From a virus, in IMG/VR virus record IMGVR_UViG_3300030382_003405, positions 1-33,369 of that record: a stretch of 33,369 bases of DNA; one strand, 5' to 3'. Of this stretch, positions 11,271 to 29,318 are shown piece after piece (position 1 is the stretch's first letter; each line of letters starts with the position of its first letter). A model generated the notes under the pieces. The model had not been told where the DNA came from and searched no databases. It saw only the letters and a list, made by a program, of their open reading frames with translations. A program made the translations under genes and the position numbers.

Positions 11271-13021
11271 TAGACCGCGAGCCCTTCGTAGTCGTTCGTT
11301 CGGATAAGGTCGAGAAGTTCGGCGTGGAGATTCGCCGCGAACTCTCGGGCGCCGCCGGGTCCAACGAACGTCCCGCCGCCGATGTTGATCGATACGCCGC
11401 CCATGCTTCGGCCGTTCGTCGCGTTTAGTGCGTTGACTGCTCCCGCTCCACCGATGCCCGCGACGGCGGACCTGGTGAGGACGCCCTCGCCCGGAGTTAG
11501 AAAAGCTGGAATTGTGTCGGTCCCTTTGGGGCCGCTGGAAAATCCGTTCGCCGCGTAGACGACGCCGCCCTGCGCGTAACCTGGGACCATCCCGCCTTGA
11601 CTTCTAAGCAGGAACCCAAGCGGACCAGCGGCGCCGCCGGTCATAGCGACGAGAGCGTTGTATATCTGTTGCTTGATGATCGCCGCAGCAATTTCGGAAA
11701 TAATGTTGCGCCAGATGCCCTCAAGACTGGCGAGCAAATCCTCCGCCGTGCTGAGTCCGGCGACCCAGTCCCCAAGCGCGGCCGCTCCGCTATCGATGCC
11801 AGTGACGAGCGCCGATTGAGCCACTTCGCCGAGACGCTCCATGTCGGTGATCGCCACGTTGATCATTTCGTCGACGTCCTCGAGACCAAGCTCCGCATCG
11901 GTAAACGGATCTTCTTCGGGCTCGAATAGCTCCTCCATTTGGAGTCCTGTCGCCCCGAGTCGACGTGTCGGGCGTGGGACGCTCCATGCGGCGTCTTCTG
12001 GAACCAGGCCCATGTCCTCTAAGCCCGAAGGCCCGATGTCCGTAGATGGCCGTGGCGGCGCAGGCGCAGGCGCTCTTGCTCCTCTAACTCCGGTCGTTAC
12101 AACGGCACCTATAAGGCCAGACAGTCCTCCTCCGCCGAACAAACCAAGATCTTGAAGGATGCCCTTGAAGCCGCCCCCTTTGCGGAGTAGGACCATTCCT
12201 TCTGCAACGGCCCTTTCCCCTGCGGCTATATCGAAAAATCCATCGGAAATAGACTGGAGTTTCAGTCCCTCCCACGCCGCCGACAAATCGGCACTCGAAT
12301 CTGCCAAGCGTTCGGCCTGCTCCGCCGCTTCGGCGTTTGCGATTCCAAAGTGTTCCGCCTGCTCGGCCGCCGATGCGATCGTGTCGAGCATCGGAAGAAG
12401 TTCCGCACCGGCTTCCGATAGCAGAATCATCGCGATCTGGCTTCGCTCGGCGTGTGATGCGATGCCCAGTAGTTCGTCCGATACGCGCTGGAACATTTCC
12501 TCGGGTCCGAGGGTTTGCAAATCTTCTAGCGTGATTTCGAGCTTTTCAAATGCAAGCATCGCCGACGTCGATCCGTCTATCGCGTCGGCTTGCATCTTGT
12601 TTAGCGTTCGGATCGCGTTGGTCACCGCCTCGACGGATGTTCCCGCCTTGGTCGCCGCGAATTGATACGCCTGGATCGCTTCAACATTGACGCCGACCCG
12701 CTTGGAGAGCTTGGCGAGTTGGTCCTGAAGTTCCAGCGTCTGTCCGATGGCGTCCTTCATGCTTCGGACCATCTGCACGCCGAACGCTGCGACCGCTGCG
12801 ATTCCGATTCCCTTGACGACGTCGTCTAGCTTGGCAAATGCTTGGTTCGCCTTTTTCGTCGCGTCGGTTGCTTTCTTTTGCCCGTCGCTGATCTTTTTTC
12901 CGGCGTCCTTGCCAGCTTTCCCGGTTTTCTCGACTGCCTTTTGCTGTTCCTTCTGGCCCTTTTTGAATTTCGGCGTCGCGTTGTCGACCATGTCCAGGGT
13001 CAGCTTGAGTTCGCTGCTCAT
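11270..13021 (-). CDS. Tail tape measure protein (583 aa)
   Basis: Long, Ala-rich and helical. It starts MSSELKLTLDMVDNATPKF and continues with Lys-rich coiled coil (residues about 18-65), a hydrophobic segment (VVKGIGIAAVAAFGVQMV), a central helical domain and further hydrophobic segments (IISEIAAAIIKQQIYNALVAM). The Gly-rich C-terminus FLTPGEGVLTRSAVAGIGG is a common tape measure ending. It sets tail length; at roughly 1.5 angstrom per residue this gives a tail of about 85-90 nm. It follows the two tail chaperone frames directly, the conserved order. Confidence 0.88.
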   Translation of the reverse strand: MSSELKLTLDMVDNATPKFKKGQKEQQKAVEKTGKAGKDAGKKISDGQKKATDATKKANQAFAKLDDVVKGIGIAAVAAFGVQMVRSMKDAIGQTLELQDQLAKLSKRVGVNVEAIQAYQFAATKAGTSVEAVTNAIRTLNKMQADAIDGSTSAMLAFEKLEITLEDLQTLGPEEMFQRVSDELLGIASHAERSQIAMILLSEAGAELLPMLDTIASAAEQAEHFGIANAEAAEQAERLADSSADLSAAWEGLKLQSISDGFFDIAAGERAVAEGMVLLRKGGGFKGILQDLGLFGGGGLSGLIGAVVTTGVRGARAPAPAPPRPSTDIGPSGLEDMGLVPEDAAWSVPRPTRRLGATGLQMEELFEPEEDPFTDAELGLEDVDEMINVAITDMERLGEVAQSALVTGIDSGAAALGDWVAGLSTAEDLLASLEGIWRNIISEIAAAIIKQQIYNALVAMTGGAAGPLGFLLRSQGGMVPGYAQGGVVYAANGFSSGPKGTDTIPAFLTPGEGVLTRSAVAGIGGAGAVNALNATNGRSMGGVSINIGGGTFVGPGGAREFAANLHAELLDLIRTNDYEGLAV

Positions 13022-13353
13022 GCGGACACCTTCTCTCTATTCTCGCGGGCGACGCGGTGGATCGTTGCGATCAGGCGCCGGAGACGAGTGCGCGTGTTTT
13101 CGTCGGGCTCTTCGCTGGCAAGGACGGAATCCCATCCACCGAAATCAGCCGCGAACGCGCCCCAGGTCGAATAGATTCCGATCGATCGATAGACAATAGG
13201 AGGCACGCCGAGCCACCCGCACGGCGGACCGCCCAGGAACGAATGACACGGTCTAGAGGACTCCGGCTTCGTTTCCACGCAGGGCTGACAGCCCATCGGC
13301 CACTTCGGGAATCTCAGAGCGTGTTCGACTGCTGCCGTTGCGAAATCGGGCAT
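13018..13353 (-). CDS. Tail assembly chaperone, second frame (gpT-like part)
   Basis: It lies in the +1 frame relative to the upstream chaperone gene and overlaps its 3' end, then runs to the tape measure start (ATGA overlap at 13018-13021). Content after the overlap, WPMGCQPC, GWLGVPPIVYRSIGIYSTWG and FAADFGGWDSVLA, resembles C-terminal chaperone extensions. Expression could be by +1 slippage (site listed separately) or from the ATG at 13353, which has AAGGAG 10 nt upstream. A frameshifted product would be about 281 residues. Confidence 0.6.
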   Translation of the reverse strand: MPDFATAAVEHALRFPKWPMGCQPCVETKPESSRPCHSFLGGPPCGWLGVPPIVYRSIGIYSTWGAFAADFGGWDSVLASEEPDENTRTRLRRLIATIHRVARENREKVSA

Positions 13354-13864
13354 CCGATTCGATCTCCTTCTGGTCGCGTTCCTCCTCGAATCGGGCAAGG
13401 TCGACGACAAGTTCCGCAACCCATCGAGCGAGTCCCGGCGCGATTTCAACGAGGACGGCCTTGTTCTCTGCCGAACACTCGAACGGCTTGTCATCGGGTC
13501 CGATAATGCCTTCCCAGTCGACGACTGCCGCCTGGAAGAGACGCAAGCCGACGCGGAGGTGGAGTTGATTCTCGTCGACGATCTCGGTCGGCACCTGGCG
13601 ACGGGAGACGACCTCGCGAGGCTTGCCGCGGTTCGCTGCGGTGATGTCTTCGAGAATCTCCTCGGTGACGAGTTCGGTTCGAGTCATTTCAGCCCGTGCT
13701 TCGTTCCAGATCCGCATGACGTCGGCGGAGTTCATCGATTCCAGGACGAGACGAACGTCGTCGGCATCCAGGACGCTATAGGAGTCGCCATCCTTGCCGT
13801 TTGCTGTTCGTGGAACGTCGAACGTGGCGCGGCGGTCCGTCTTCGATTTGATCGTGAAGCTCAT
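13253..13864 (-). CDS. Tail assembly chaperone, first frame (gpG-like)
   Basis: 203 residues beginning MSFTIKSKTDRRATFDVPR, between the tail tube gene and the tape measure gene, the invariant position of the tail chaperone. It is acidic and helical (DDVRLVLESMNSADVMRIWN, VAELVVDLARFEEERDQKEI). The protein holds the tape measure and recruits tube subunits during assembly and is absent from virions. Its last 100 nt are shared with a second frame, as in lambda G/GT-type pairs. The role follows from position and the overlap; sequence family not named. Confidence 0.72.
   Translation of the reverse strand: MSFTIKSKTDRRATFDVPRTANGKDGDSYSVLDADDVRLVLESMNSADVMRIWNEARAEMTRTELVTEEILEDITAANRGKPREVVSRRQVPTEIVDENQLHLRVGLRLFQAAVVDWEGIIGPDDKPFECSAENKAVLVEIAPGLARWVAELVVDLARFEEERDQKEIESDARFRNGSSRTRSEIPEVADGLSALRGNEAGVL
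13306..13309 (-). promoter_or_regulatory. Candidate +1 programmed frameshift site (CCC-G)
   Basis: In the first chaperone frame the codons read ATT CCC GAA. A tRNA-Pro on CCC could re-pair with CCG one base forward, giving ...EIP-KWPMG. Some phage chaperones (Listeria PSA, SPP1 type) use +1 shifts at CCC codons. No pausing signal was established here. Confidence 0.35.
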
Positions 13865-26917: not shown

Positions 26918-27048
26918 CCGTCCACCCTCCGATCGCGTGCCTTCCGCTTCTTCCGCAGGTGCTTCCGCCTCCGCTTTGAGAGACGTCCGGCTCGGGCCTT
27001 CCCGCCGACGCGGTGATTCGATCCGCCGGTGATTCGCTTGTCGGTCAT
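26914..27048 (-). CDS. Small strongly basic protein (44 aa)
   Basis: Reads MTDKRITGGSNHRVGGKARA then GRLSKRRRKHLRKKRKARDR and ends with VDG. Over a third of residues are Lys or Arg, so nucleic-acid binding is likely. ATGA overlaps with the cytosine methylase stop (27045-27048) and with the next start (26914-26917) support real translation. Function unknown. Confidence 0.62.
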   Translation of the reverse strand: MTDKRITGGSNHRVGGKARAGRLSKRRRKHLRKKRKARDRRVDG

Positions 27049-28115
27049 CGTTCTACCCTTTCGCGTTCGATCTCTACGATCCGCCTTCCGGCCCGGTAGG
27101 CGACCTGGGGAACGACGGCGTTTCCGAGGGCTCGGAGCTTGGCGACTCGTTCAGGACATCCGCGTACCACTCGCGGTATCGGTCGATCTCCGAAGCCGTC
27201 GCCTCCTCGCTCAAGTGCAGCCAGCGCACCGGGAATCCCATTAGCCAGCACACCCAAACAGGGCTCAGGGAGCCAAGCGCCTTCCCCGTGCGTTGATCTC
27301 GAACATGGATCTCCCGGCCTAGCAGACTGTTCACGGGGACATTCTGGCACGATTTTGCCGATCCGTCCTTCCAGTCCCGCGCCGTCGGCGTCGGCCACAT
27401 CTTCCCGCTGCGGGCCGGAGCTGCTCCCACTGCGCCCGTCAATGTTGGATAGTCGCGGCCGTTCGCCGTCTGATATCCGTGCCGCCTGGTCGCCTCCGAG
27501 ACCGTCGGCGTCGGCCACATCTGGACCACCTCCGAAAGTCCCGGTCCCCCTTGCGCGTTCGGTCCCCTGATGCCGAAATGGGCCTCGCTCGCCTTCGGCG
27601 TTGGCCACATCGCCGTGCCTGGTGGCAATGATGAAAAGCCGATCCCGACGGTGAGGGGCGCCGACGGCGGCCGCCGGGATATGATCCCATTCCGCATCGA
27701 ACCCGCTCTCGTGAAGGTCACAGAGAACTCGGTCGAATCCCAAGGAAAGGTGACCTGGCACGTTTTCAAAGAGCGCGTAGCGGGGTCGTATAGCGCGTAG
27801 GATTCGGACGACATCGGGCCAGAGGTGCCTCGGGTCGTTTTCGCCCTGGCGGTTGCCGGAGTAACTGAAGGGTTGGCAGGGATACCCGCCGACGAGGACG
27901 TCGACCGCCTCGAGGTCGGTGGGGTCGATCGTTTTGACATCGTCGAATCTCCTAACGTCGGGCCAATGGTGCGCGAGAACTTTCTGACAGAACGGATCGA
28001 TCTCGACCTGCCAGCGGACCTCGAAACCGAGCCACTCCAGGCCGAGGTCGAGACCGCCGATCCCCGAGAAGAGAGAGCCGACGGTCAGCCGCCGATCAGG
28101 CATCATCCGGTCCAT
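27045..28115 (-). CDS. C5-cytosine DNA methyltransferase (Dcm-type)
   Basis: 356 residues. Motifs in order: I, LFSGIGGLDLGLE (15-27); IV, GGYPCQPFS with catalytic Cys80; VI, ENVPG (117-121); VIII-like, GAPHRRDRLFI (152-162); X, LRALGNAVVPQVAYRAGR (328-345). Residues 165-290, the target-recognition region, carry three repeats DVA(N/D)A(E/D)G at 169, 199 and 239. It methylates cytosine in a specific site, likely protecting phage DNA; no restriction partner is visible. The start at 28115 overlaps the previous gene by 20 nt; 28106 and 28103 are alternatives. A second long frame overlaps it. Confidence 0.92.
   Translation of the reverse strand: MDRMMPDRRLTVGSLFSGIGGLDLGLEWLGFEVRWQVEIDPFCQKVLAHHWPDVRRFDDVKTIDPTDLEAVDVLVGGYPCQPFSYSGNRQGENDPRHLWPDVVRILRAIRPRYALFENVPGHLSLGFDRVLCDLHESGFDAEWDHIPAAAVGAPHRRDRLFIIATRHGDVANAEGERGPFRHQGTERARGTGTFGGGPDVADADGLGGDQAARISDGERPRLSNIDGRSGSSSGPQREDVADADGAGLEGRIGKIVPECPREQSARPGDPCSRSTHGEGAWLPEPCLGVLANGIPGALAALERGGDGFGDRPIPRVVRGCPERVAKLRALGNAVVPQVAYRAGRRIVEIERERVER
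27074..27814 (-). CDS. Out-of-frame open frame inside the cytosine methylase gene (MWPTP-repeat protein candidate)
   Basis: On the same strand but another frame than the methylase, open from 27940 to 27074. From ATG 27814 (MSSESYALYDPATRSLK) it gives 246 residues with FPWDSTEFSVTFTRAGSMRN, three MWPTP motifs (MWPTPKASEAH, MWPTPTVSEATRR, MWPTPTARDWKDG) and LSPVWVCWLMGFPVRWL near the end. From memory, this order (WPRSGxMRNG, WPTPT, EWLMGFPIGW) occurs in many phage database proteins. It may be a real overlapping gene or a widely mis-annotated shadow; the ribosome-binding site is weak. Confidence 0.35.
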   Translation of the reverse strand: MSSESYALYDPATRSLKTCQVTFPWDSTEFSVTFTRAGSMRNGIISRRPPSAPLTVGIGFSSLPPGTAMWPTPKASEAHFGIRGPNAQGGPGLSEVVQMWPTPTVSEATRRHGYQTANGRDYPTLTGAVGAAPARSGKMWPTPTARDWKDGSAKSCQNVPVNSLLGREIHVRDQRTGKALGSLSPVWVCWLMGFPVRWLHLSEEATASEIDRYREWYADVLNESPSSEPSETPSFPRSPTGPEGGS

Positions 28116-28299
28116 TCGGGAGCGCCCACCGCTCGATCGCTTCGATGAATTCGTGCTCTCTCACTCCGTCGGGATTCTTGCCGACGTCGAGTCCGATGAT
28201 TTGAGCGAGTGCGACCAACTCCATGCCTCGGAAGTTCCCACCCCGGACCGAGGCGAGAATCTGCATTCGGTCCTCGGTCGTCCATTTCTTCGTCGTCAT
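28096..28299 (-). CDS. Hypothetical protein (67 aa)
   Basis: Starts MTTKKWTTEDRMQILASVRG and includes MELVALAQIIGLDVGKN and EFIEAIERWALPNG. It is coupled to the N4/N6 methylase gene by an ATGA overlap (28296-28299) and overlaps the cytosine methylase start. The small, mostly helical protein sits between two methylase genes, so it might assist one of them, but no motif shows this. Confidence 0.6.
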   Translation of the reverse strand: MTTKKWTTEDRMQILASVRGGNFRGMELVALAQIIGLDVGKNPDGVREHEFIEAIERWALPNGPDDA

Positions 28300-29318
28300 C
28301 GCTCCGCCTCAATTTCTGCGACGAGGCTCGAGCCGTTGATTGTGTCCGCTGCATGGATCATTGATTCGAGAGTCATCTGTTTCGACTCTGAATGTCGGAT
28401 GCTCTCCATATTTCGGATCGCTTGGCGGAAGTATGTGTCCTTGAGTTCTATCCCAATTCCGCGCCGTCCATTCATCACGGCGCTATATACTTCAGACCCG
28501 ACTCCCATAAACGGCGTGATGACGGTCTCGCCCGGATTGCTCCACAAAGTTAGGCATCGTTCGATAACGTCTAGCTGTAGCGGGTGAACGTGTTTCTCGT
28601 CATCTTCGCCCCGAGCTTCCTTGAATGGAAGCACGCGGTCCAATCGAACATCGTCCCAGAATGCCGACGCATATTGACGCCAGATCCAATGAGAGAACCG
28701 GTTCATTTTTTGGTCGCCGTCATATCCTTCAAACGCTGCGTATTCCTCGGGCATCTCTCTCGCACCCGCATATTCATGGAGCCCGGTCGGATGCGCTATT
28801 GGGACTGGGTTCGTTCCACCGCGACGGAAGACGAGCAGGTAATCCGCGCTCGCGTTTGAGCATCGGCTGGAATCGTCGACGATTGACTTGTGCGCGAGGC
28901 TCTTCATCATCGTCCTATTCCGGACCCCCAGCGGCTCTTTCCATACAGAATATCGGGCCGCGTAACGGAATCCTATTTTCTGATGGAGCCGAATAATGTC
29001 GCCGGGAAAATCTATTAGGCTATCGCAGCCCGTATTCCCACTCGGGACATCCATGCAATGGACGGCGGTCATCCGCCCCGGCATCGTAAGACGATATAAG
29101 TCACGAACGACAAATTCGTAATGCTCAAAGAACTCGTCATACCCGGCACAATTCGACATGTCACGCTCGCTCGACGAGTATTGATACAGTCCAGCGAATG
29201 GGGGCGAATATATCGAAAGGTGGACGCTTCCAGACGGAAGGCCCGGCATCACCTCGCAGCAATCGCCGCGATATATCGCATAATCGTCTGTCACTCGTTG
29301 ATCCATGATTAGATCCAT
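28296..29318 (-). CDS. N4-cytosine/N6-adenine DNA methyltransferase (beta group)
   Basis: 340 residues. Catalytic motif IV SPPF (38-41) comes before motif I PFMGVGS (269-275), with HPLQLDVIER at 245-254 and GIGIEL at 288-293, the order of the beta group. SPPF occurs in N4-cytosine and some N6-adenine enzymes. It likely marks phage DNA against host restriction, or toggles binding of phage proteins. It overlaps the helicase gene by 10 nt. No restriction endonuclease gene lies nearby. Confidence 0.88.
   Translation of the reverse strand: MDLIMDQRVTDDYAIYRGDCCEVMPGLPSGSVHLSIYSPPFAGLYQYSSSERDMSNCAGYDEFFEHYEFVVRDLYRLTMPGRMTAVHCMDVPSGNTGCDSLIDFPGDIIRLHQKIGFRYAARYSVWKEPLGVRNRTMMKSLAHKSIVDDSSRCSNASADYLLVFRRGGTNPVPIAHPTGLHEYAGAREMPEEYAAFEGYDGDQKMNRFSHWIWRQYASAFWDDVRLDRVLPFKEARGEDDEKHVHPLQLDVIERCLTLWSNPGETVITPFMGVGSEVYSAVMNGRRGIGIELKDTYFRQAIRNMESIRHSESKQMTLESMIHAADTINGSSLVAEIEAER

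Follow-up and report, generated by a model that had tools for sequence, protein, structure and literature searches.

We found that two same-strand open reading frames sharing one stretch of phage DNA very probably encode the two subunits, alpha and beta, of a C5-methyltransferase that is a heterodimer made from overlapping genes. The window (the whole virus record analysed, 33,369 bases) carries terminase, Mu-type portal and capsid genes, and therefore represents a tailed phage or prophage. In the arrangement that we propose, two overlapping genes on one mRNA would give rise to a two-subunit DNA (cytosine-5) methyltransferase: frame A would supply the catalytic chain, with SAM binding, the catalytic Cys and motifs I-VIII and X, and translation of frame B, from a ribosome-binding site of its own within frame A, would yield a small-domain subunit with motif IX and a variable region that would contact and recognise the target. 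The two chains would assemble into one functional C5-methylase marking the phage DNA, most likely against host restriction, and the frame B product would probably be the methylase's missing DNA-reading half. A sequence-only reading of this DNA had reported a 288-codon second frame inside the methylase gene, which is indeed present at 27074-27940 (minus strand) in the +1 frame of 27045-28115 (minus strand), with its ATG at 27940 (27938-27940), its stop at 27074 and 336 codons from stop to stop. That this frame holds motif IX, and probably the target-recognition domain, went unrecognised in that reading. The features are as follows.

27045..28115, minus strand: frame A, putative alpha subunit, 356 aa; motifs I-VIII and X without motif IX (PF00145, M.HhaI profile alignment, AlphaFold)
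27074..27940, minus strand: frame B, putative beta subunit (288 aa) in the +1 frame of A; holds motif IX and the putative target-recognition part (PHROG_1008, stop depletion, substitution ratios)
27873..27881, minus strand: motif IV PCQ with catalytic Cys80, frame A (sequence; invariant in the family alignment)
27639..27653, minus strand: motif VIII HRRDR, frame A (sequence; H155, R157 and R159 invariant in the family alignment)
27105..27140, minus strand: motif X LRALGNAVVPQV, frame A (sequence; G331, N332 and P336 invariant in the family alignment)
27948..27953, minus strand: candidate Shine-Dalgarno AGGAGA for frame B (7 nt before the ATG; -7.3 kcal/mol)
27629..27940, minus strand: N-terminal module of frame B, over frame A motifs IV-VIII (1 stop versus 269.6 expected in relatives; dN/dS of B 0.34/0.62)
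27296..27628, minus strand: probable frame B target-recognition region, carrying MWPTP three times (between motif VIII in A and motif IX in B; B more constrained than A)
27221..27268, minus strand: motif IX LSPVWVCWLMGFPVRW, frame B (profile match, E 7e-12, to one-frame relatives themselves aligned to M.HhaI KLHPRECARVMGYPDSY)

In frame A, the Pfam family PF00145 covers residues 11-172 only (E 2e-45). When the frame A family profile is aligned with M.HhaI, the main match spans residues 4-178 of the latter (motifs I-VIII), and a further, weak segment falls at 296-319 (motif X). AlphaFold gives a pLDDT of about 95 for residues 11-170, mostly below 50 for 171-310, and 81-94 for the motif X helices at 321-356, the low-pLDDT stretch being the place of the small domain in one-chain enzymes. 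Foldseek matches for frame A were M.HhaI and M.HaeIII, with a TM of about 0.44 on the query. No QGFP-type motif IX is found in frame A, and the window departs from the full-length one-chain PF00145 layout in having motif IX in the +1 frame, out of frame with motifs I-VIII. Directly upstream on the same strand lies an N6/N4-type DNA methylase gene (28296-29318, minus strand; PF01555, E 6e-15), two methylases thus adjoining.

Frame B has no match in Pfam, and its sequence has none in the PDB, but residues 14-250 match positions 39-288 of the 329 in PHROG_1008 (E 1e-29). The most strongly conserved frame B stretch in the family, LNPxWVEWLMGFPxGW, is read from frame A together with motif X in relatives L034, L102, L103, L105, L118, L178 and L197, where it aligns to the motif IX of M.HhaI, KLHPRECARVMGYPDSY. 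Because the frame B profile matches these L118-type relatives over exactly this stretch (E 7e-12), we assign motif IX to frame B. When frame B was modelled alone with AlphaFold the mean pLDDT was 59, and only the motif IX helices reached 77-88. The PHROG_1008 label reads DNA methyltransferase and is silent on a beta subunit overlapping alpha; the database proteins of this family are predicted to be the beta subunits of these methylases. Where the end of the PHROG_1008 profile matches motif X of the window, it does so in frame A alone (E 0.04).

The sequence-only reading had also pointed to similar phage proteins deposited separately, and such proteins do exist: beside the PHROG_1008 match, both frames are annotated as separate CDSs in Paenibacillus phage Leyra (gp61/gp62) and Mycobacterium phage Firecracker (gp6/gp5). 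The motifs it had listed in the second frame, SYALYDPATRSLK, FTRAGSMRNG and CWLMGFPVRWL, are all present, as are three copies of MWPTP (at about 27596-27610, 27506-27520 and 27386-27400), the three methylase-frame repeats (DVANAEG, DVADADG and DVADADG) and the identical 21-bp repeats at 27382-27402 and 27502-27522. It was right to caution that repetition in either frame is bound to produce repetition in the other; MWPTP mirrors DVADADG. This mirroring, and the fact that conserved frame A motifs dictate some frame B residues, would be expected if frame B were a non-coding shadow whose conservation came from the methylase protein alone, in which case the database family would be a shadow of Dcm genes. 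We regard this as exceedingly improbable given the stop counts and substitution ratios of the relatives.

We collected two sets of loci, the first from frame A queries only (L022-L137) and the second from frame B queries in viruses and genomes of many phyla (L138-L297), and derived expected stop counts by synonymous codon shuffles within each frame A gene that keep the methylase protein. The window alone has no stops in frame B versus 2.5 expected (P = 0.048), which is only weakly above chance. Across the overlap in 134 relatives, however, the +1 frame contains 4 stops versus 545 expected, whereas the +2 frame of the same relatives has 1284 versus 1348, as expected. Because the first region tested ended where the frame B match ends, we repeated the test with borders set by frame A only, and found 1 stop in the +1 frame versus 269.6 expected over motifs IV-VIII, 4 versus 121.8 from motif VIII to VIII+70, and 271 versus 236.6 before the frame B start. 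Ordinary bacterial C5-methylases (17 one-chain enzymes), which were taken as the control because a first set of one-chain viral methylases related to L051 turned out not to be neutral, show no depletion over motifs IV-VIII (65 versus 72.7). Frequent stops among homologues, which the sequence-only reading had named as evidence against a second gene, are thus nearly absent.

Pairwise similarity in excess of that forced by frame A was pronounced at motif IX (Z 4.9) but gave no clear answer for the variable region, where alignments differ by frame, and for this reason we replaced it by substitution ratios. The dN/dS values are simple pairwise counts, uncorrected for multiple hits, from 37 independent pairs, given for each frame first where the other is silent and then where the other changes. 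Before the frame B start the +1 frame is already at 0.64/0.98 and A at 0.14/0.21; over motifs IV-VIII the ratios are 0.34/0.62 for B and 0.16/0.30 for A; in the variable region between VIII and IX they are 0.32/0.54 for B and 0.52/0.89 for A; and at motif IX they are 0.09/0.20 for B and 0.37/0.82 for A, with a +2 control of 0.8-2.1. The constraint therefore shifts from frame A to frame B at motif VIII and is strongest in B at motif IX; it would return to A at motif X, since motif X is conserved in A. This is selection on the second frame beyond that imposed by the methylase, and a shadow is refuted at the family level by the stop counts, the bacterial control and dN/dS. On the evidence of sequence, frame B is a real, conserved gene under purifying selection, and the scarcity of stops and the selection in homologues support two proteins sharing one gene across many phages, as the sequence-only reading had suggested as one of its two options.

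Frame B also has a start signal of its own in the sequence. In the window, a Shine-Dalgarno sequence TTAGGAGA lies 7 nt before the frame B ATG (the sequence directly ahead of it reads TTAGGAGATTCGACG), with a strength of -7.3 kcal/mol that equals the site of the capsid gene. In frame A the AGGAGA is read as a tandem AGG-AGA Arg pair; only 2 of 27 genes contain tandem AGR pairs, and AGR accounts for 10% of the codons used for Arg. The other gene with tandem AGG/AGA pairs (13018-13494, minus strand) has three of them and is overlapped by an ORF at 13253-13864, possibly marking another internal ribosome-binding site. Candidate starts were present in 119 relatives, whose best sites have a mean of -5.5 kcal/mol (-1.1 in shuffles), and many of these starts lie 16-27 codons before the PC of motif IV. 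These Shine-Dalgarno-led starts in the window and relatives favour independent initiation over a programmed frameshift after motif VIII, by which motifs I-VIII from A would be fused to the target-recognition domain (TRD) and motif IX from B. Some actinophages, in which frame A terminates a little past motif VIII at a point where frame B has no stop, would fit such a shift, but we consider it very unlikely: frame B is kept open well ahead of the place where a shift would be of use, reaching back to some 20 codons before motif IV and no further, the Shine-Dalgarno-led starts sit at this upstream limit, and a single shift would leave the main class, with motif X in A, without a complete enzyme.

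The two frames keep a fixed relation. Frame B is in the +1 frame of frame A in all 135 loci of the first sets that have both parts, and an overlap check that the sequence-only reading had proposed found 158 of 160 frame B-selected loci overlapping a methylase in this same relative frame. Standalone copies, which that reading would have taken as proof of a gene, were not found among these 160 loci, the two exceptions being truncated or broken (L163 is an indel-broken copy), and wherever frame B occurred there, the motif X end of frame A, at the least, was present too. L156 and L019 have another gene in place of motifs I-VIII (SGGKDS PAPS-reductase-like in L156, with a start resembling a helicase in L019) but retain motif X in A as well as the TRD and motif IX in B; assembly chimeras are possible. 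This association bears on whether frame B is an overprinted protein unrelated to methylation, such as an inhibitor or a separate anti-host factor. The frame B N-terminal module is kept, and another +1 ORF with a different C-terminus lies over one-chain methylases that need no extra TRD, both of which would suit an unrelated product; however, B has the enzyme's motif IX that is absent from A, is accompanied in all these loci by the motif X end of A or more, and in actinophages also has motif X, which makes this reading very unlikely.

The heterodimer that we favour resembles an overlapping two-part arrangement known from a few bacterial enzymes, which is very common in the phages examined here; our literature search found no description of it in phages. 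The small gene of M.EcoHK31I lies in another frame within the large gene. M.EcoHK31I and M.AquI each consist of two polypeptides, and in M.EcoHK31I motifs I-VIII, X and the predicted TRD are in the large subunit with motif IX in the small one (PMC3404938). The window is thus like M.EcoHK31I (YGGCCR), with a large chain carrying I-VIII and X but not IX and a small chain carrying IX, a likeness of motif layout. It differs in being a phage gene where M.EcoHK31I is a bacterial enzyme, and in that the TRD of M.EcoHK31I is predicted in the large chain, whereas the window's variable region is more constrained in the small one (B 0.32/0.54 versus A 0.52/0.89). M.AquI (CYCGRG) is split after motif VIII within the variable region with the rest in the small subunit, like the phages Firecracker, Wile and Vash, and has motif X in the small subunit where the window has it in the large. 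M.HhaI and M.HaeIII share the frame A catalytic domain and, through the one-frame relatives, the frame B motif IX, but unlike the window they are one chain in one frame with the TRD and motif IX following VIII in that frame.

When 294 loci were sorted by strict motif tests, 238 were of the window type (X in A, IX in B), although some contigs recur between scans and locus counts are not independent events. In 5 (Firecracker, Wile, Vash, L208 and L165) frame A terminates past motif VIII and both IX and X lie in B, and 9 were called as having IX and X in A with a PTP-rich region in B, a class of about 8 given that L139 proved on reading to be of the window type. Aside from 1 ordinary methylase and 3 that run off the contig edge, the remaining 38 were not sorted by the motif patterns, many having IX in B with no X recognised. 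In 77 of 95 loci, exactly 38 nt separate motif IX (+1) from motif X (A). Among the relatives that we read, the +1 frame held the PTP-rich variable region. In L003 and the L118-type relatives named above, motif IX is in frame A with the PTP-rich region still in +1, which amounts to a change of frame for part of the small domain. In L006, L007, L008 and L208, but not in the window, the small chain carries motif X, as in M.AquI. For the mycobacteriophages and Streptomyces phages in which A ends just after VIII with IX and X in B, the second ORF would therefore be needed for a complete enzyme.

When loci were selected on the catalytic frame only, the strict motif tests placed 87 of 117 in the window type. 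This layout is therefore common among phage C5-methylases, and the same-strand overlap that it entails is both long and widespread. Among the phage and plasmid records that we viewed, several annotate the alpha frame only and others name both halves as separate methyltransferases. Gene callers that bar large same-strand overlaps lose or mislabel one half of such enzymes, and alpha alone would be expected to fail in activity assays. Because function would be tied to both frames, the locus is also a natural experiment on one DNA satisfying two proteins.

The non-neutral viral control related to L051 led us to a second overlapping ORF, which we call B-prime. It is a conserved +1 ORF of 150-200 aa in one-chain phage C5-methylases (L051, L298-L326, L357-L436, L438, L439 and probably phage P1 dmt, L437:2298-2786) that starts at a place similar to frame B, ends about 45 codons after motif VIII and has the C-terminus SLSDVLETGxxPxKYFLSPKACRGILRRAEKRGR. 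It matches PHROG_16143 and has no match to a Pfam family. Observed/expected stops are 1/35.2 and 0/11.0 in 20 loci, where the start signal is -7.2 versus -1.2 kcal/mol, and 2/152.5 and 0/39.6 in 76 B-prime-selected loci; its dN/dS is 0.28/0.32 after motif VIII versus 1.0/1.0 before its start. In each of the 80 loci of a B-prime-selected set it lies in the +1 frame of a C5-methylase, and in 61 of them that methylase itself carries motifs IX and X. The +1 frame over motifs IV-VIII might thus be a general overlapping-gene site of phage C5-methylases, used for a beta subunit (TRD and IX) in one lineage and for B-prime in another, a generalisation to which we give slightly less than even chances. 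If the shared N-terminal module has a function of its own, it would represent an unrecognised accessory factor of phage C5-methylases. The B-prime stretch is present in the +1 frame of phage P1 dmt, which probably belongs among the one-chain methylases with B-prime.
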